From positions 1 to 37,527 of IMG/VR virus record IMGVR_UViG_3300025096_000055: a stretch of 37,527 nucleotides of DNA; one strand, 5' to 3'. The position numbers and the translations under genes were made by a program. The stretch comes from a virus. The notes beneath the pieces were generated by a model. It was not told the DNA's origin. It saw only the letters and a list, made by a program, of their open reading frames with translations, and did not search any database. Positions 3,350-24,133 of this stretch are shown here, piece after piece (position 1 is the first letter of the stretch; every line of letters starts with the position of its first letter).

Positions 3350-3598
3350 ATGACTGTAGAAGAATTACTCGCTGATTTCCAGAAACAAAAACAAACTGTC
3401 CTTGCCCAAATTAAAGAAGGAGAAGCCACTATATTGGTATTGAAAGAGAAATTCTATAAGTTGGATGGTGGTATTCAGGCTTTACAATTACTATCTGGAT
3501 CTAATAGTTCTCCAGTGGCAATTCCACCGAATCGACCAAAAGGACCTATTCCAGTTACTGGACCAAGTACTGGTACAACCAAGAAAGTGTCTACTTAA
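3350..3598 (+). CDS. Small coiled-coil protein with Pro-rich tail, 82 aa
   Basis: Residues 1-47 form a predicted amphipathic helix/coiled coil (FQKQKQTVLAQIKEGEATI). Residues ~50-82 are a flexible Pro/Gly/Ser/Thr tail (PPNRPKGPIPVTGPSTG) ending in a basic cluster. It has no membrane segment or signal peptide. It sits between the CobT-like and CobS-like genes and has a near-consensus late promoter 20 bp upstream, so it may be expressed late. No Shine-Dalgarno is evident. I do not recognise a family; a small scaffold or adaptor for one of its neighbours would fit the shape but is unproven. Confidence 0.72.
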   Translation: MTVEELLADFQKQKQTVLAQIKEGEATILVLKEKFYKLDGGIQALQLLSGSNSSPVAIPPNRPKGPIPVTGPSTGTTKKVST

Positions 3599-3652
3599 GA
3601 TAGTAAATTAAATTTAATTGGGTTATTATAATTATATTGATTCGTTACATGA

Positions 3653-4537
3653 ATGATCGAACACAAACTTATAAAACGAACTCATTCAGAAAAATCTGCA
3701 ATTGAAACGCCGTTACAAAATCTTATCCCTGAAAAAGATGATACCTTCGTCAAGTTTGGTCCGTTTAACGATATTAAAAACATTATTAAGTCCCGTTTAT
3801 TCTACCCTATATTTCTTACGGGTCTTTCGGGTAATGGTAAAACGTTTAGTATCGAACAAGCGTGTGCTCAACTAAATAAAGAGTTAATCCGTGTCAACAT
3901 AACAATTGAAACAGACGAAGATGACCTTATTGGTGGGTTTCGCCTTGTTGATGGTAACACTGTATGGCATAACGGTCCAGTTGTCGAGGCATTGGAAAGG
4001 GGAGCTACACTCCTTTTAGATGAGATTGATCTTGCTTCTAATAAGATTCTATGTCTCCAATCTATCCTTGAAGGTAAGGGAGTTTTTCTGAAGAAAATTG
4101 GTAGGTTTATTAAACCTTCTCCAGGTTTTAATGTTATCGCAACTGCTAATACAAAGGGTAAAGGATCTGATGATGGTAGGTTCATTGGTACTAATGTACT
4201 TAATGAAGCATTCCTTGAAAGATTCCCTGTAACTTTTGAACAAGAATATCCAACCCCTAACATAGAACAAAGAATTCTTTCAAAACATTTCGATGACGCT
4301 AAGTTTTGTAAGCGTCTTGTGGATTGGGGTGACATCATTAGAAAAACATTCTATGATGGCGGAGTAGATGAGATTATCTCTACTCGTCGTTTGGTTCATA
4401 TTGTTAATGCTTATAAAATTTTTAAAGATAAGGAAAAGTCACTTCGATTCTGTTTGAATCGTTTTGATGATGAAACAAAAAAGTCGTTTTTGGAATTGTA
4501 TGATAAAGTTGATATTGACTTCCAACTTACAGACTGA
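3653..4537 (+). CDS. cobS: CobS-like MoxR-family AAA+ ATPase
   Basis: 294 residues with all core AAA+ elements: Walker A GLSGNGKT (57-64), the CobS/MoxR segment ETDEDDLIGGFRL (~86-98), Walker B LLLDEID (120-126) and a sensor-1-like ATANTKG. CobS is the ATPase subunit of aerobic cobaltochelatase; the phage gene is well known in T4-like cyanophages, where it is usually labelled cobalamin or porphyrin biosynthesis. With a CobT-like VWA protein just upstream, the pair makes an ATPase/VWA module; what it remodels is unknown. A nearby ATG at 3649 is in another frame. The 3' end carries a sigma70-type promoter for the following genes. Confidence 0.88.
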   Translation: MIEHKLIKRTHSEKSAIETPLQNLIPEKDDTFVKFGPFNDIKNIIKSRLFYPIFLTGLSGNGKTFSIEQACAQLNKELIRVNITIETDEDDLIGGFRLVDGNTVWHNGPVVEALERGATLLLDEIDLASNKILCLQSILEGKGVFLKKIGRFIKPSPGFNVIATANTKGKGSDDGRFIGTNVLNEAFLERFPVTFEQEYPTPNIEQRILSKHFDDAKFCKRLVDWGDIIRKTFYDGGVDEIISTRRLVHIVNAYKIFKDKEKSLRFCLNRFDDETKKSFLELYDKVDIDFQLTD

Positions 4538-4543
4538 TATAAT
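4515..4543 (+). promoter_or_regulatory. Sigma70-type promoter before the sliding-clamp block
   Basis: TTGACT (4515-4520) and TATAAT (4538-4543) are separated by exactly 17 bp: 5/6 and 6/6 matches. It lies in the last codons and stop region of the CobS-like gene. Transcription would start near 4550, inside or just after the GAGG preceding the ATG at 4558. Confidence 0.72.
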
Positions 4544-4557
4544 TCTATGAGGTACTT

Positions 4558-5055
4558 ATGGTTAATGCTTGGAGTTTATTATGGGAAGAAATTAATGGTA
4601 CTATGGATGAAACTTACCCTATAAAGGAGAAGAAGATGACTGAGAAACCAGAAGAACCTGATGATTATGCTAAACTTGTTGATCACTTAATGAAGGCTGA
4701 AGAGAATTATAAAGAAGTTATAGGAAAAAAACCTGTAGCCGATTTTGAACAATCTGATTATAGGAAATACCAAGAAGATAAAAGTATGCGTGATCTTTCT
4801 GATTATATTTCTTCAACATATCAAGGACATTATACTAATGATGGTTCTAATGTACAAACTCTTGACCTTATTCATTCCGTAGGTGATGCGGAATCTTTCT
4901 GTCGATCTAATGCCATTAAGTATTTGAGTAGGTATGATAAGAAGGGACAAGCAAAGCGTGATATACTAAAAGCAATGCACTACTGCCTTCTGTTATACTA
5001 TTTCAGCGGCAACACACAAAATGAAACTCCGACCCGTGGTTATGAAACTTTCTGA
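4558..5055 (+). CDS. DUF3310 (SaV-like) family protein
   Basis: 165 residues. The C-terminal ~50 residues carry a pattern typical of DUF3310: a D/A-E-S-F region, then NAIKYLSRYDKKGQ and a helix DILKAMHYCLLLYY. This matches the usual GNAIKYLxR..KG....DLxKAxxYL signature. DUF3310 includes phage proteins related to T7 gp1.7 and SaV; T7 gp1.7 has nucleotide kinase activity, but function here is not established. Two starts are possible: ATG 4558 (GAGG 5 nt upstream) and ATG 4636, preceded by a better AAGGAG (4624-4629). The 4515-4543 promoter would leave almost no leader for 4558, which favours 4636 (139 aa) on that transcript. It overlaps the clamp gene by 14 bases. Confidence 0.7.
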   Translation: MVNAWSLLWEEINGTMDETYPIKEKKMTEKPEEPDDYAKLVDHLMKAEENYKEVIGKKPVADFEQSDYRKYQEDKSMRDLSDYISSTYQGHYTNDGSNVQTLDLIHSVGDAESFCRSNAIKYLSRYDKKGQAKRDILKAMHYCLLLYYFSGNTQNETPTRGYETF

Positions 5056-18585: not shown

Positions 18586-19728
18586 GTGGCCCATTTAACT
18601 AAGGACACTCTCTCTAAAAGGGAAGGAGAAAAGTTTACTAAGAAGTTCCTTTCCATGGATGGATTGGTAAATGAGTGGAAGGTGGTAGATAATGGAATTT
18701 TTATTCCTACTGCTTTAGTTTTAGATATTGAGGGTGAGGATTATGCTTTTGAATCGCATGATTCCGATGACTTCCAATTAATTTTTAATAGGGTACAACA
18801 AACTGCTAATATCTCTGGAACGAAAGGTAAAATCCAGTTTACAGGTCATTATAAAAATACTGGCCAGATTAAAACGATCAAGTTAACTGACTTAGAAAAG
18901 ACTCCAGAGTTTGGTGGAGCAGGATCTGGAGAGAAGAAAGAAAATTTAGGACTTGTTTTTGAAAGAGAATTTTTTCAATCGATAGAATATCTTCTTCAAT
19001 TAAGAAAAGAGAAGGGTCAATATCATACTTTCGCAGAAAAGTTAATTGAACAATTATCACAAAATACAAAATATAAAGTTTTAACTAGAGCGATTCCTGA
19101 AGGAGAAAATAATACAAAAAGACCTTTAAGTGTTTATGCTATGAGGTTGGGTGGAGGTAAAGAGGATATTGGTGAAATTGTTACTGATATTACTTTGGAG
19201 TATGGTAAAGAAAAGGTATATCTTTCATTAAAATTTGAAGAGACTTTAGCGTTTGCTAACATTGGTGTAAGTACGATATTTACAGAAGCTTCATTAAGTA
19301 AGTATGATCCAAATGCTAAAGGCATGGCTCTTTTAAAAACATTTGGACTTGATTGGATTAGTTTTTGTGAAACATTTAATACGTATCCCCATTCAAAAAA
19401 GATTCAGAATCACAAAAAGGACATAACAGGTAAGATTAATAAGAAGAATGTAACAAGACTGTTACGCCAAATGATGGGCAAAGGTTATTGGATGGTACAT
19501 GGTCGTAGTAGAAGTAATGTTGAGATCTACGAAGTTAACGATTCGTATCTAAATCGCGCAACAACCTTGACAGGCAATATAACTGCGTACTATGGTGGAA
19601 CTACTGGTAAAGGTAAAAAGGTAGTTGTTGACTGCGAATCTAGCCTGTACAAATTTCAGTTTAACTTCCGAAATAAACAGGGTAAACTTTATCCATCACA
19701 CGTTATGTGTGACTATAAGAAGAAATAA
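18586..19728 (+). CDS. Hypothetical protein with PD-(D/E)XK nuclease-like core
   Basis: 380 residues, GTG start at 18586. The middle shows a helix with conserved acids (NLGLVFEREFF, ~120-130), then TDITLEYGKEK followed by VYLSLKF: Asp201 and Ser214-Leu-Lys216, spaced like the D...(S/E)xK core of restriction-endonuclease folds, some of which use SLK. The C-terminal ~140 residues are basic and beta-rich (RSRSNVEIYEVNDSY, KGKKVVVDCESS) and could bind nucleic acid. I cannot name the family, and the nuclease idea rests on this pattern alone. A structural protein is the main alternative. It ends 1 bp before the ligase/NMNAT-like gene. CCTAAATA (18555) upstream is a poor late-promoter match. Confidence 0.72.
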   Translation: MAHLTKDTLSKREGEKFTKKFLSMDGLVNEWKVVDNGIFIPTALVLDIEGEDYAFESHDSDDFQLIFNRVQQTANISGTKGKIQFTGHYKNTGQIKTIKLTDLEKTPEFGGAGSGEKKENLGLVFEREFFQSIEYLLQLRKEKGQYHTFAEKLIEQLSQNTKYKVLTRAIPEGENNTKRPLSVYAMRLGGGKEDIGEIVTDITLEYGKEKVYLSLKFEETLAFANIGVSTIFTEASLSKYDPNAKGMALLKTFGLDWISFCETFNTYPHSKKIQNHKKDITGKINKKNVTRLLRQMMGKGYWMVHGRSRSNVEIYEVNDSYLNRATTLTGNITAYYGGTTGKGKKVVVDCESSLYKFQFNFRNKQGKLYPSHVMCDYKKK

Positions 19729-19729
19729 G

Positions 19730-21511
19730 ATGTCTAAGAATACTCACCTAGAACATCTTGAAGATGATATTCTTAATGATGGATCAGTAGGAGCAACTAA
19801 TGCAATAGGTTTTTTAGAAGAGTTGGGTAGGATGTTAAGTCAACCCACTTCTTCTATTAATATTACTACAAAATGGGACGGTGCTCCTGCGATTGTTTGT
19901 GGTATTGATCCAGAGAGAAAAAGATTTTTTGTTGGGACAAAATCTGTATTTGCAAAAACAAAACCAAAACTTTGTTTTTCTGATGATATGATTGATGCTT
20001 GGTATCAAGGTCAATTAAATCAAAAACTTAAGGATTGTCTTAAGTATCTTCCAGAACTTGGTATTACTGGAGTTCTTCAGGGAGATCTTTTGTTTACTGA
20101 CGATAAGAAAAAGGAAATTATTAATGGCGAAAGCGTAATTAGCTTTACTCCGAATACTATTACATATGCTGTTCCTGTAGATTCTGATCTAGGAAAATTA
20201 ATTAATGGAGCTAAGGTAGGTATAGTTTTTCATACTACCTATACTGGAACTTCTATGGAAGAGATGACTGCAAACTTTAATAAGATTTCTGTAAGTAGTA
20301 CTGGTAATGTATATGCGGCAACTGCTTCATTTGAAGATGCGTCCGGTGCAGCAGAATTTACTGCTGACGAAATTCAGAAATTTAATGCATTGGTTAATCG
20401 TGCTCGTGGTAGTATTACAAAAGCATCTACTTTTTTAGATGTTCTTGGTGAAACTGGTTATGGTAGATATCTTCTTTCTGGATTATTTAAACAGTTCTTT
20501 AATTCTTATATTCGTCGTGGTGAAAAAATTATTAATGTAAGACAAAAGGTTATTGATTTTAATGGATACTATGAATCTATATTAGACAAACATATATCAA
20601 CATTAAAGACAACAACATCTAAGGCAAAGTATCGTACCATGCAACAAAATGGTCTTGAATTTTTGAATAAGAATAGTCAATCTGTTTACTTTACTATTGC
20701 AACTTATATTAATTTGCAGGAGGCAAAGAGATTTGTTATTCGTAAATTGGAGAAGGTTAAGACGTTAGGAACATTTTTGAAAACTGAGAATGGTTATAAG
20801 GTTACTGCCCCTGAAGGATTTGTTGCTATTAAATCTGGAAAGGCTTTGAAGTTAGTTGATAGACTTGAATTTTCTCGTGCGAACTTTACTGCTGATAAGG
20901 AGTGGGAGACTGGTAATACTTTATATTTGGATAAACCTCTTATTGGTACAACTGGAACTAATCAACATCGATCAGTAGCTATTACTTTTGGTAGATTCAA
21001 TCCACCTACTATTGGCCATCAGAAACTTTTAAATCAAGTTAAGAAAGTATCATCAAATTATAGGATTTATACGAGTCATACTCAGGATAAGAAAAAGAAT
21101 CCTTTATCGTCTGCATCTAAGGTTTCATATATGAAGAAGATGTTTCCTGTACATGCAAGTAAGATAATGTATAATACTTCTCTCAAGACTATAATCCATG
21201 TATTAAAAGATCTTGAAAAAAATTATGAAGAAGTTGCTTTGATTGTAGGTAGTGACAGGGTTAGGGAGATGAGAACCCTTATTGAAAAATATAATAATAA
21301 GGAGTATTCGTTTAAGAGTTTAAAGGTAGTATCTGCTGGTCAAAGGGATCCTGATGCAGAAGGTGTAGGTGGAATGTCTGCTTCTAAAATGAGAACAGCA
21401 GCACAAAAGGAAGATTTTAAATCTTTTAGACAGGGGATTTCTAAGAGTTTGGATGATAAAGAAACAAGAAATCTTATGAATGAAGTCAGACACGGCATGG
21501 GACTTGCATAA
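19730..21511 (+). CDS. Fusion: ligase-type nucleotidyltransferase + NMN adenylyltransferase-like domain
   Basis: 593 residues from ATG 19730 (the frame opens earlier inside the previous gene). The N-terminal half has motifs of covalent nucleotidyltransferases (DNA/RNA ligases, capping enzymes): motif I KWDG (Lys48 as nucleophile), LQGDL (116-120), IVFHTT (~165-170), motif IV EGFVAIK (362-368) and motif V LKLV (373-376). The C-terminal half has nucleotidyltransferase-fold motifs of NMNAT/cytidylyltransferases: FGRFNPPTIGH (420-430; T-x-G-H), VGSDR (506-510) and SASKMR (550-555; compare ISSTxxR). Predicted reactions are AMP transfer to a polynucleotide or protein, and NAD+ synthesis or another nucleotidyl transfer. 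Both may share adenylate chemistry. T4-like phages are known to carry NMNAT-type proteins; the combination in one chain is unusual. Late promoter CATAAATA overlaps its end. Confidence 0.78.
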   Translation: MSKNTHLEHLEDDILNDGSVGATNAIGFLEELGRMLSQPTSSINITTKWDGAPAIVCGIDPERKRFFVGTKSVFAKTKPKLCFSDDMIDAWYQGQLNQKLKDCLKYLPELGITGVLQGDLLFTDDKKKEIINGESVISFTPNTITYAVPVDSDLGKLINGAKVGIVFHTTYTGTSMEEMTANFNKISVSSTGNVYAATASFEDASGAAEFTADEIQKFNALVNRARGSITKASTFLDVLGETGYGRYLLSGLFKQFFNSYIRRGEKIINVRQKVIDFNGYYESILDKHISTLKTTTSKAKYRTMQQNGLEFLNKNSQSVYFTIATYINLQEAKRFVIRKLEKVKTLGTFLKTENGYKVTAPEGFVAIKSGKALKLVDRLEFSRANFTADKEWETGNTLYLDKPLIGTTGTNQHRSVAITFGRFNPPTIGHQKLLNQVKKVSSNYRIYTSHTQDKKKNPLSSASKVSYMKKMFPVHASKIMYNTSLKTIIHVLKDLEKNYEEVALIVGSDRVREMRTLIEKYNNKEYSFKSLKVVSAGQRDPDAEGVGGMSASKMRTAAQKEDFKSFRQGISKSLDDKETRNLMNEVRHGMGLA

Positions 21512-21532: not shown

Positions 21533-21796
21533 ATGATGAAGAGTTTTAGCCAGTTTGTATCACAAGCCCAGTCTGTTGTTTTTGAAAAGAAACAACCGAA
21601 AGACACTAGAACTCTGCGTGAAAAGTATTTGGATGGGGATATTTTTAAAGTAGGTGAACAAGTTGAAGATATTAAATCCAATAAGATTGGAGAGATTATT
21701 CGTAGAGGTGCTAACTACCTCATTTGTTTAGATGAGTCTGAAAATGTTTTTAGATGTTGGCTTTCTGAAAACATAAAGACTAGGATAAATAAATAA
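21533..21796 (+). CDS. Small protein with capsid-targeting-like N-terminus, 87 aa
   Basis: Starts at ATG 21533 or 21536; the N-terminus MKSFSQFVSQAQ resembles the capsid-targeting sequence of T4 internal head proteins (MKTYQEFIAEA type). The C-terminal half, GEQVEDIKSNKIGEIIRRGANYLICLDE, has a small beta-barrel (KOW/SH3-like) pattern. A late promoter lies 19 bp upstream. In T4 such proteins enter the prohead and are trimmed by protease gp21; no LxE cleavage site follows here, so trimming is uncertain. Proposed role: internal capsid protein, possibly injected with DNA. Confidence 0.7.
   Translation: MMKSFSQFVSQAQSVVFEKKQPKDTRTLREKYLDGDIFKVGEQVEDIKSNKIGEIIRRGANYLICLDESENVFRCWLSENIKTRINK
21784..21795 (+). 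promoter_or_regulatory. Two overlapping late promoters GATAAATA / AATAAATA
   Basis: GATAAATA at 21784-21791 and AATAAATA at 21788-21795 overlap, 25-36 bp before the ATG at 21821. Both match 7/8. Confidence 0.65.
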
Positions 21797-21820: not shown

Positions 21821-24133
21821 ATGGAAAGTTCAACTTGGCAGAATCTCTTTGAACAGGCTAGGACTGTTCTAGCTCCTGTTGAAGAGGATTTGGAACCTGG
21901 TGAGAAGGAGCATCTCAAAAAGAGACGTGAAGAGCTTAAAAGGCAAAGAGTGATAAAGCATAGGACCCACCAAAGGTCTGCTGAACATGATAGGACTAGA
22001 CTAAGAGACACGGAGGCTGTTATGCGTGCTGATGAATTTGATCCTTCATTGGACGAAGAAGAGAAGAAGTTTAAAGTAAGAGTTAGGAATCGACATACGA
22101 ATAGGACTGACGTTCGTATGGCTACCCGATCAAAGATCAATAAACTTCGTGCTAGTAAAGAAATTTCATCAGTTGAAATGACTGGTCATGGAGTTGCGAA
22201 AGAACAAAAACCTGTTCAGAAAAAGAAACCTATTTCCACTGCTTCAAATGTTAAGAAGGAATCTACAGAAGTACCATCAGGAAATGTTAAGAAACTCGTT
22301 AGTAAAGCGGTTAAGAGAGTTGACACAGATGTCGATGGCGATGTCGATCATAATGACAAGCAGAAAGGCCCCTTAGGAGAATTTGTTCCAGATCCTTCTG
22401 GTAAGAAGAGAGTTTATAGTGGTGTAAAGAAAGAAGGATTCTCTAATTGGAGAGATGAACTTCGTGAAATTAAAGATGTTGATGATAATGATGTTAAGAA
22501 AATTGATACCAAGAAGAAAGTAAAGAATAAGATTATTATCAATCCAAAACTTGGTGAAGAAGTAGAACAGTTGGGTGGTAAACTTATATCACTTGCTGAG
22601 AAAAAGGGTGGTAAATGTGATGATTGTTCATGTGAAGGTTGTGGACAGGATCCATGTGTAGAATGTGGTGAAGATCATCATAATTTGGATGAAGCATCAT
22701 ATCCAGGTTACGATGAGAAAGGTAAGAAAAAGGATGATCGTCTTACGGTAACTCATGCTGATAAGAAAGCAAACACTCCTGCTTATCAAAAGTATAAGGC
22801 AGGTGATAAGAGGTATAAGGCTGCTGATCATTTAAAGAATGAAGAGGCTGGTGGTGCTGAAGATAAGGGTCTTAAAGCAAAACAACAGAAACAAAGTCAG
22901 ATTAAGAAACAGATTCTTCTTAAGAAGATGCAAGCTGTTAGATCTGGTGGTGGAGAAGACATTCAAGCATCATATCAACCTGATGTGACTAAAGAAGAAA
23001 TTAAAATGACCAAGAAGGCATATAATAAACTTCATAAAGATTTTAAGAGTGACGACCCTAAGAAACCTCGTACAACAAAGTATAATCCTAAGACAGGTGG
23101 TACAGAATCACATCCTGTTAAGTTTGTAGATGAAGCAAAAGTTGATACTGGTAAGTCTGCTGATGAAAAATCAACCGCACGGAATCAAAGGAATAATCCT
23201 AAGAAAGGTGATCCTGGTTTTGGAAAGTTTGCCACTTCAGTTTTCATAAAGAGAAAGGAAGGACAATCATTGGCGTGGGGTAAGGACTCTGCTGCTAGTG
23301 AAAAACGTAGAGAAGCACATGCTAAGAAGCGTGGTATTAAAGAAAAAGAAGGGGCTCTTCATGAAGATGAGTATCGTAGAATGCTTGCGAAAGAAAGACA
23401 AACCGAAAAGCAAAAAGAATTAAAGAGGGGTGGACCAAAGAGTGTTACTCCAGGTAAAAATACTAAGAATAGTGCTAAGTCCTATGCTGACCAACAAAAA
23501 CAATCCATTGATTATCACGATAAGAAAAGTAAAAACAACAAAATTGTCGTTGGTATGGTTAAAGAACAGGGTGTTGATGAAGCAAAGGTAGATACTGGTT
23601 CTGCTGAGGAGAAAGCAACTGCTAGAAATAAGAGGAACACTCCTCCTGGTAAGGACTCTAAGTTTGATACTTCAGTCTTTATAACCAGAAAGCCTGGTGA
23701 GTCTCTTGATTCTGCTCGTACTAGAACTCGTCAAAAAGCACATGCTGCTAAGCGTGGTGTGAAAGAAGGGTTTAAAACACTAACACCGGATAAGAAACGG
23801 GCAATTAGGAATCAGGCAGAGCGTAGAAAGAAGTCAGCTGATAGAGCTCAGATGGCTAGTGATTACACGACATCTACGAAGCAGGATCAGCAAGTTCGTA
23901 AGATGAAAAAGGTTAGTGAAGACAAAGCATTTGATAATGTGGTGAGTATGTTGCGAAAAAAGCACGGTGAGTCCGGTGTCCTCACAAAAGATTCTCCAAA
24001 ACCAAAACCACAACCTAAGGCAAAACCCAAACCTCAGAAACCTTTAAGTGCTAAAGAAAAGGCACAGAGAGAAGTTGATGCTCAGTATGGTGGAGCTGAA
24101 AATAGAAAGGCAGGTCGTGGGTTAGGAACCTGA
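21821..24133 (+). CDS. Large Lys-rich repeat protein, probable internal capsid protein
   Basis: 770 residues, extremely charged (Lys/Arg/Glu/Asp) and probably largely disordered. N-terminus MESSTWQNLFEQA has a capsid-targeting-like pattern with an LFE site resembling gp21-protease LxE sites; further candidates are LGE (PLGEF) and LAE (ISLAEKK). A Cys cluster C266-x2-C-x-C-x2-C-x4-C-x2-C282, with His286/287, could bind zinc. Two copies of a ~70-residue module (436-511 and 585-651) share VDEAKVDTG, ATSVFI/DTSVFI and AHAKKRGIKE/AHAAKRGVKE. The tail is rich in Pro and Lys (KPKPQPKAKPKPQKP). Late promoters lie just upstream. These features suit a DNA-condensing internal head protein; a scaffold is the alternative. 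I do not recognise a named family. Confidence 0.78.
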   Translation: MESSTWQNLFEQARTVLAPVEEDLEPGEKEHLKKRREELKRQRVIKHRTHQRSAEHDRTRLRDTEAVMRADEFDPSLDEEEKKFKVRVRNRHTNRTDVRMATRSKINKLRASKEISSVEMTGHGVAKEQKPVQKKKPISTASNVKKESTEVPSGNVKKLVSKAVKRVDTDVDGDVDHNDKQKGPLGEFVPDPSGKKRVYSGVKKEGFSNWRDELREIKDVDDNDVKKIDTKKKVKNKIIINPKLGEEVEQLGGKLISLAEKKGGKCDDCSCEGCGQDPCVECGEDHHNLDEASYPGYDEKGKKKDDRLTVTHADKKANTPAYQKYKAGDKRYKAADHLKNEEAGGAEDKGLKAKQQKQSQIKKQILLKKMQAVRSGGGEDIQASYQPDVTKEEIKMTKKAYNKLHKDFKSDDPKKPRTTKYNPKTGGTESHPVKFVDEAKVDTGKSADEKSTARNQRNNPKKGDPGFGKFATSVFIKRKEGQSLAWGKDSAASEKRREAHAKKRGIKEKEGALHEDEYRRMLAKERQTEKQKELKRGGPKSVTPGKNTKNSAKSYADQQKQSIDYHDKKSKNNKIVVGMVKEQGVDEAKVDTGSAEEKATARNKRNTPPGKDSKFDTSVFITRKPGESLDSARTRTRQKAHAAKRGVKEGFKTLTPDKKRAIRNQAERRKKSADRAQMASDYTTSTKQDQQVRKMKKVSEDKAFDNVVSMLRKKHGESGVLTKDSPKPKPQPKAKPKPQKPLSAKEKAQREVDAQYGGAENRKAGRGLGT
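23126..23353 (+). repeat. Internal duplication, copy 1 (coding)
   Basis: Encodes residues 436-511 of the Lys-rich protein (VDEAKVDTGKSADEKS...). It matches copy 2 at protein level in sequence and order of motifs, while the DNA has diverged. Confidence 0.75.
23573..23773 (+). repeat. Internal duplication, copy 2 (coding)
   Basis: Encodes residues 585-651 of the Lys-rich protein (VDEAKVDTGSAEEKAT...), nine residues shorter than copy 1. Confidence 0.75.

Follow-up and report, generated by a model that had tools for sequence, protein, structure and literature searches.

The locus and its genes

The window, by which we mean the whole 37.5 kb (37,527 nucleotides) stretch of viral DNA analysed here (IMG/VR virus record IMGVR_UViG_3300025096_000055), contains two adjacent genes that encode a 380-aa (amino acid) protein resembling PD-(D/E)XK nucleases and a 593-aa protein in which a ligase-like domain of the family DUF6267 is fused to an NMNAT-like nucleotidylyltransferase domain (Table 1). 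The replication region of the window is T4-like, with the order clamp, clamp loader, DNA polymerase, uvsX, gp41 helicase, mazG and the gene pair, followed later by primase and ribonucleotide reductase; uvsX, gp41 and mazG were named from their sequence and from the gene order in annotated relatives. The first open reading frame (ORF; 18586-19728) has a GTG start at 18586 and a TAA ending at 19728, the second (19730-21511) begins with an ATG at 19730 and extends to a TAA at 21511, and a single base (19729) lies between them. An earlier note, made from the letters of the DNA, had described these positions and lengths, the 1-bp gap, the KxDG and EGFV motifs with Lys48, and the TIGH and SASKMR motifs further downstream, all of which were confirmed.

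Table 1. Coordinates of the features at the locus and the evidence on which each assignment is based.
Feature	Coordinates	Strand	Evidence
380-aa PD-(D/E)XK-like protein (P0002)	18586..19728	+	PHROG 8438, 55-member alignment, AlphaFold2 model, PDB neighbours
DUF6267 domain, residues 1-393 of the 593-aa protein	19730..20908	+	Pfam PF19782, invariant columns, AlphaFold2 secondary structure
Linker and NMNAT/HIGH-type nucleotidylyltransferase domain (about residues 415-592)	20909..21511	+	PF01467, PHROG 3041/395, Foldseek NadD
Small ORF with capsid-targeting-like N-terminus MKSFSQFVSQAQ; start is one of two adjacent ATGs	21536..21796	+	Match to C-terminal part of PHROG 395

Ligase-type motifs in DUF6267

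Residues 4-390 of the 593-aa protein match Pfam DUF6267 (PF19782) with an E-value of 2.6e-128. Pfam gives the family no function, and the PHROG scan likewise assigned this part to phrog_455, function unknown; no mention of DUF6267 and no earlier ligase or nuclease assignment was found in the literature searched. The domain opens with HLEHLED (residues 6-12), followed by a KWDG motif I (19871-19882, with the Lys48 codon at 19871-19873), a motif III-like QGD (residues 117-119), PNT..Y, and an EGFV motif IV (residues 362-365, 20813-20824) that leads into KALKLVDR with the motif V-like KLVDR. The residues K48, D50, G51, D119, E362, G363, V365 and K374 were invariant, first in 10 diverse relatives and then in 59, as were further constants in HLEHxED, FF..K..F, QxD119, PNT..Y146, HT.Y, KxVxR and NF. 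The full series K.DG...EGxV...K occurred in 106 of 107 non-redundant relatives, while the rates among other ORFs and shuffled sequences were 1.7% and 1.3%; the reported ORFs and motifs are no chance pattern. The motifs follow the order I, III, IIIa, IV and V known from the covalent nucleotidyltransferases.

In the AlphaFold2 model of the 593-aa protein (mean predicted local distance difference test score, pLDDT, of 81), a strand ends at K48, QGD and PNT..Y are located within strands or next to them, and EGFV and KLV occupy neighbouring strands with a helix after them. The modelled strand placement of motifs I, III, IV and V thus appears to be that of the covalent nucleotidyltransferases, and on these motifs and this predicted secondary structure DUF6267 is probably a ligase-type nucleotidyltransferase. 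The argument is one of mechanism. Since significant profile similarity to known ligases is absent, we call the domain ligase-like and do not place it among the covalent nucleotidyltransferases. Whether it acts as a polynucleotide ligase is evenly balanced in our view. Sequence searches of the PDB gave no true relatives, merely coiled-coil or short spurious matches, and a PADLOC match of the 593-aa protein to JetA was dismissed as a helical-region hit of E 0.002.

The NMNAT-like domain

The C-terminal domain contains FGRFNPPTIGH (from 20984) and SASKMR (21377-21394), and its residues 418-536 match CTP_transf_like (PF01467, E 1.6e-6). It also matches PHROG 3041 and 395, both described as cytidyltransferase, whereas its NCBIfam NadD match falls under the cut-off of that model. 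Foldseek against the PDB returned NadD (8aii and 1k4k, both with prob 1.00) together with other nucleotidylyltransferases, and the domain thus combines the (T/H)xGH and SxxxxR motifs of the HIGH type with a NadD-like fold. The NMNAT-like fold proposed in the earlier note is, on this evidence, almost certain.

The small ORF directly downstream (21536..21796) is probably the detached C-terminus of the nucleotidylyltransferase gene, because it matches the C-terminal part of the PHROG 395 cytidyltransferase. The same ORF matches PHROG 4808, which carries a ribonucleotide reductase-type name, and public records also give misleading names or notes of this kind (NrdA/NrdB, ribonucleotide reductase) to genes beside or equal to the nucleotidylyltransferase at L012:6733-7008, L184:7528-7803 and L015:5911-7059. 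Further downstream (21821-24133) lies a 770-aa lysine- and glutamate-rich protein with repeated KVDTG..EKATARN..P..FxTSVFI..KPGESL units and without a PHROG match, similar to long low-complexity neighbours of the nucleotidylyltransferase at other loci.

The 380-aa protein and the variable slot before DUF6267

The 380-aa protein matches PHROG 8438, of unknown function, and scans of Pfam, PHROG, NCBIfam and PADLOC returned no function for it. Four residues, E126 (18961-18963), D201 (19186-19188), and S214 and K216 of the S214-L-K216 triplet (19225-19233), were invariant in 55 relatives. In a confident AlphaFold2 model (pLDDT 91.5) E126 sits in a helix (121-138), D201 precedes a strand (202-206), and S214-L-K216 is on the strand that follows (209-217). 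The commonest PDB neighbours of the model were archaeal Hjc Holliday-junction resolvases, which held many of the top ranks, and the RecU-type structure 1rzn appeared at rank 48. A nuclease-type fold, as the earlier note had supposed, is accordingly likely, and the candidate identity of a virion structural protein was set aside with the predicted fold being nuclease-like. Ser214 is found two residues before Lys216, at a position usually occupied by Asp or Glu, and for this reason the protein is named PD-(D/E)XK-like. Serine variants at this position (SxK) exist in some restriction enzymes of the Cfr10I/NgoMIV type.

The gene before DUF6267 is hypervariable, with at least 10 dissimilar families, nearly all of which carry D...(S/E)xK and whose PHROG matches are all of unknown function. 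Alignment showed the pattern to be conserved in 8 of the 8 slot families tested, with Ser in the SxK position in most families and Glu in L067 and L094; individual shuffle frequencies were 0.4-8%, figures that are illustrative because the pattern was picked after viewing the sequences. We do not propose that the slot families share an ancestor, since hhalign among them was mostly not significant, the best values being 90% for c2/c7 (outside the motif) and 57% for c6/c8 (spanning it). The slot can also be empty, as the nearest long ORF before DUF6267 was gp41 or a 174-aa oxygenase-like gene in 9 of 90 loci.

Recurrence of the cassette

The co-occurrence in marine T4-like genomes that the earlier note had put forward for checking is borne out by a neighbourhood that recurs. 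Among the loci gathered, 65 have the nucleotidylyltransferase start no more than 100 bp from the DUF6267 end, a further 40 have it within 3 kb, and at six, the window included, the two domains share a single ORF. The P0002 family stands directly before DUF6267 in 34 loci and directly before the nucleotidylyltransferase in 43. The complete cyanophage genomes W09, W11 and W12, to which a lone nucleotidylyltransferase or a pairing of P0002 with the nucleotidylyltransferase had led, encode a shorter DUF6267 elsewhere in the genome. A functional linkage of the cassette parts is therefore very likely.

At pelagimyophage-type loci an adenylate kinase (PF00406, E about 1e-34 to 1e-41) and an AAA_33/Zeta-type P-loop kinase are inserted between DUF6267 and the nucleotidylyltransferase (L041-L065, L187, L189), many of them with capsid-targeting-like N-termini, and HAD/NT5C-like ORFs occur at some of these loci. 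The window has no such kinases, and most cyanophage loci showed none.

Shorter DUF6267 variants (about 290-330 aa), which are without much of the helical segment of the full-length domain, were seen at L017, L147, L149 and L179 and near 42-46 kb in W09/W11, and several genomes place such variants outside the cassette. In the S-PM2 record AJ630128 (L184), one of the six fused loci, the DUF6267 part is divided between two overlapping frames, whereas another S-PM2 record (LN828717) and the BFVD model A0A0M6VVW4 (591 aa) show one uninterrupted fused protein. DUF6267 is also broken within one contig at L058:3530-4804 (ORFs 3530-4573 and 4631-4804), by a frameshift or a sequencing error.

Judged by phage records matching DUF6267 and UvsX, the domain is near-universal in T4-like cyanophages and constitutes a near-core gene: 368 records against 375 for Synechococcus phages and 61 against 61 for those named 'Cyanophage', where organism names defined the counts and some non-T4 phages may be included in the UvsX search. 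According to a genome review (PMC2984593), cyanomyoviruses have no recognisable DNA ligase (g30) and lack denA, denB and ndd, the host-DNA-degrading genes of T4. In keeping with this, PF01068, PF09414 and PF01653 gave no match in the scanned cyanophage, pelagiphage and Methylophilales phage records; among 18 records, families of ATP-dependent DNA ligases, RNA ligases and NAD-dependent ligases were found in Stenotrophomonas phage DLP_6, Vibrio phage 2.275 and Caulobacter phage Cr30 only. DUF6267 was present in 17 of the 18, a biased rate as the records were chosen mainly by cassette homology searches. Bacterial and archaeal DUF6267 loci were rejected as cellular homologues; they look like viral contigs because the phage gene order is found on what are mostly marine contigs of metagenome-assembled genomes, spread over many taxa.

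Capsid-targeting-like tags and virion proteomes

For the T4 internal protein IPIII the first 10 residues are enough to direct packaging; targeting depends on residues 4 and 7 and processing on residues 8 and 10 (PMC9026906). N-termini of this kind, for example MKSFFQFLSEA, were found on 67 of 110 nucleotidylyltransferases and 16 of 93 DUF6267 proteins, compared with 57 of 984 other plus-strand ORFs, many of which encode kinases of the cassette or are out of frame, and 6 of 379 minus-strand ORFs. Further DUF6267 proteins have MFSFKGFITK-like starts that resemble the tag without meeting the pattern. Tagged slot proteins were few (L011, L068, L099), and no tag occurred among the 63 P0002-family members tested.

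Published virion proteomes include two of the nucleotidylyltransferases, both of them tagged: S-SZBM1_140, with two peptides (PMC9146016), and S-CREM2 ORF154, with three (PMC10665884). The S-SZBM1 gene order is slot protein (142), DUF6267 (141) and nucleotidylyltransferase (140). A further NMNAT was reported for the virions of S-SCSM1 and S-CBWM1 (PMC9602691). The nucleotidylyltransferase is thus probably packed into the heads of related phages. These virion data were absent from the earlier note, as were three features that are new here: the near-universality of DUF6267 in T4-like cyanophages, the hypervariable nuclease-type gene before it and the capsid-targeting-like tags on relatives.

A model of the cassette and its alternatives

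The reading that we favour, and which we regard as standing midway between right and wrong, is that the locus is a nucleic-acid cutting and sealing cassette of marine T4-like phages with NAD-linked nucleotidyl transfer, the activities and substrates being predicted. In this model the PD-(D/E)XK-type protein, one of many alternative slot families, would cut DNA of the host or of competitors, or some other nucleic acid, and differing targets or counter-measures would drive the diversification of the slot. To judge by its motifs, Lys48 of DUF6267 may take AMP from ATP or NAD+ and activate 5'-phosphate ends, and the domain is a candidate for the ligase seemingly absent from cyanomyoviruses. The NMNAT-like domain would transfer a nucleotidyl group, most simply from ATP to nicotinamide mononucleotide (NMN) to yield NAD+, and could supply or recycle cofactor next to the ligase domain, which would explain the fusion. 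To judge from the tags of the relatives, some members of the set are probably delivered together with the phage DNA and act early, although the two proteins of the window are untagged. A ligase makes AMP, and also NMN if it is NAD+-dependent; adenylate kinase would recycle the former and the NMNAT the latter. Because the two enzymes fit these by-products, we infer that a cut-heal-seal set with cofactor recycling is the most economical reading. A stricter version, in which Lys48 takes AMP from NAD+, NMN is released and the fused NMNAT restores NAD+ with ATP, would make the fusion a self-recycling NAD+-dependent polynucleotide ligase which, with a hypervariable nuclease and partly head-delivered, replaces the T4 ligase and the host-DNA-degrading enzymes in marine T4-like phages; this we consider quite improbable.

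Several observations weigh against the proposed cassette function. A large helical segment (212-340) separates motifs IIIa and IV of DUF6267 in the model, and hhalign comparisons of the domain with ATP-ligase, LigA and RNA-ligase profiles, for which known ligases were gathered from genomes, gave short local matches that were not significant (E >= 0.05), although in three of the ATP-ligase comparisons the best of them coincided with motifs I, III and IV. A DUF6267 hidden Markov model ranked ligases no better than decoys (area under the curve 0.51), and no ligase was among the 50 PDB matches listed by Foldseek for the full-length 593-aa model, a list dominated by the nucleotidylyltransferase domain. 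DLP_6 and Vibrio phage 2.275 have DUF6267 in addition to a recognisable DNA ligase. The PDB matches of the 380-aa model are below significance (best E 0.038, prob <= 0.72), and with Ser in place of Asp/Glu this protein could be a weak or inactive nuclease. The tag, present on the next ORF (21536), is missing from both the 380-aa and the 593-aa protein, DUF6267 and the slot protein are not among the S-SZBM1 virion proteins quoted from PMC9146016, and the authors of the S-CREM2 (PMC10665884) and S-SCSM1 (PMC9602691) studies state that such enzymes may be carry-over.

The missing ligase profile match, the lack of a ligase fold among those 50 matches and the virion proteomic support for the nucleotidylyltransferase only would be accommodated if the locus were a head-borne set for NAD or nucleotide metabolism, in which NAD+ supply or counter-defence by the NMNAT-like domain is the central function and DUF6267 is no ligase but an AMP-transferring modifier of proteins or small molecules. 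NAD regulation was proposed by the authors of PMC9602691 and PMC10665884. We nevertheless find this explanation unlikely, as it accounts neither for the nuclease-like slot beside DUF6267 nor for the full KxDG...EGxV...K series.

The hypervariable slot and the constant DUF6267 could also form a toxin-like pair, with the nuclease injected to attack rival phages or host replicons and a constant DUF6267 shielding or repairing the genome of the phage itself, a view consistent with the tags on a few slot proteins and with the T4 internal proteins, a diverse defence set with only the targeting sequence in common (PMC3012670). The untagged P0002 family, the 43 loci where P0002 and the nucleotidylyltransferase have no DUF6267 between them, and the placement of DUF6267 elsewhere in W11 and W09, which have such a cassette or a lone nucleotidylyltransferase, make this pairing doubtful. 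RNA (tRNA) repair, in which DUF6267 would be an RNA ligase that reseals tRNAs after cleavage by anticodon nucleases of the host, the ends would be healed by partner kinases and phosphatases, the NMNAT-like domain would supply the nucleotidyl group and the upstream protein would only bind or trim ends, is suggested by the kinases and HAD/NT5C-like ORFs at some loci, which recall T4 Pnkp/Rnl1, but is improbable given the adjacent nuclease-like slot and a location behind uvsX and gp41, both of which point to DNA, Hjc-like folds that act on DNA, the lack of any RNA-binding domain or RNA_ligase profile match, and the restricted occurrence of the kinases. The logic of phage RNA repair, which counts in favour of that view, is reviewed in PMC9503650 and PMC7824862.

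The cutting and sealing cassette thus retains much of what the earlier note had envisaged: the nuclease-type fold, whose Hjc neighbours have weak scores and which does not resemble a structural protein, the NMNAT-like domain, the invariant ligase motif set at Lys48 in suitable order and secondary structure, and the recurrence of the locus are all supported, while homology to ligases beyond the motifs and the rescue of nucleic acid cleaved by host defences, which the note had suggested, are hypothetical. T4-like cyanophages are abundant ocean viruses, and a near-core gene with ligase motifs beside a fast-evolving nuclease-type gene provides a testable candidate for the seemingly missing ligase and host-DNA-degrading genes. 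The combination of a constant ligase-like gene, a hypervariable nuclease-like neighbour and tagged associated enzymes suggests a virion enzyme set comparable to the T4 internal proteins.

Comparison with known systems

DUF6267 shares with the ATP- and NAD+-dependent DNA ligases and the RNA ligases (T4 gp30, Rnl1, Rnl2, LigA) the KxDG motif, the acidic motif III, EGxV and the motif V Lys, in the same order and with the same strand placement in the model. Unlike these enzymes, it has no profile-level similarity to them, a helical segment between motifs IIIa and IV, an HLEHxED N-terminus of its own and, after motif V, no domain except the NMNAT-like fusion. The C-terminal domain has the TFGRFNPPTxGH and SASK(M/L)R motifs and the NadD fold (prob 1.00) in common with NadD, NMNAT, NadR and the phage 'cytidyltransferases' (PHROG 3041, 395), and differs from them in being fused to DUF6267, where cyanophages typically have a stand-alone, tagged homologue that contains additional segments. 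The 380-aa protein resembles the Hjc/RecU-type PD-(D/E)XK nucleases, with Hjc as the predicted fold neighbours, in the helix Glu, the Asp before a strand and the xxK on the next strand, and departs from them in having SxK for (D/E)xK, extra N- and C-terminal segments and Foldseek scores under significance. In contrast to the small basic internal head proteins of T4 (IPI-IPIII, Alt), the cassette relatives are large enzymes, and the nuclease-like and fused proteins of the window are untagged. Nevertheless, many of these relatives start with MK(S/N/K)FxQFLSEA-like sequences in which positions 4, 7, 8 and 10 are conserved and, like the T4 proteins, they constitute a diverse set with the tag as the only shared feature.

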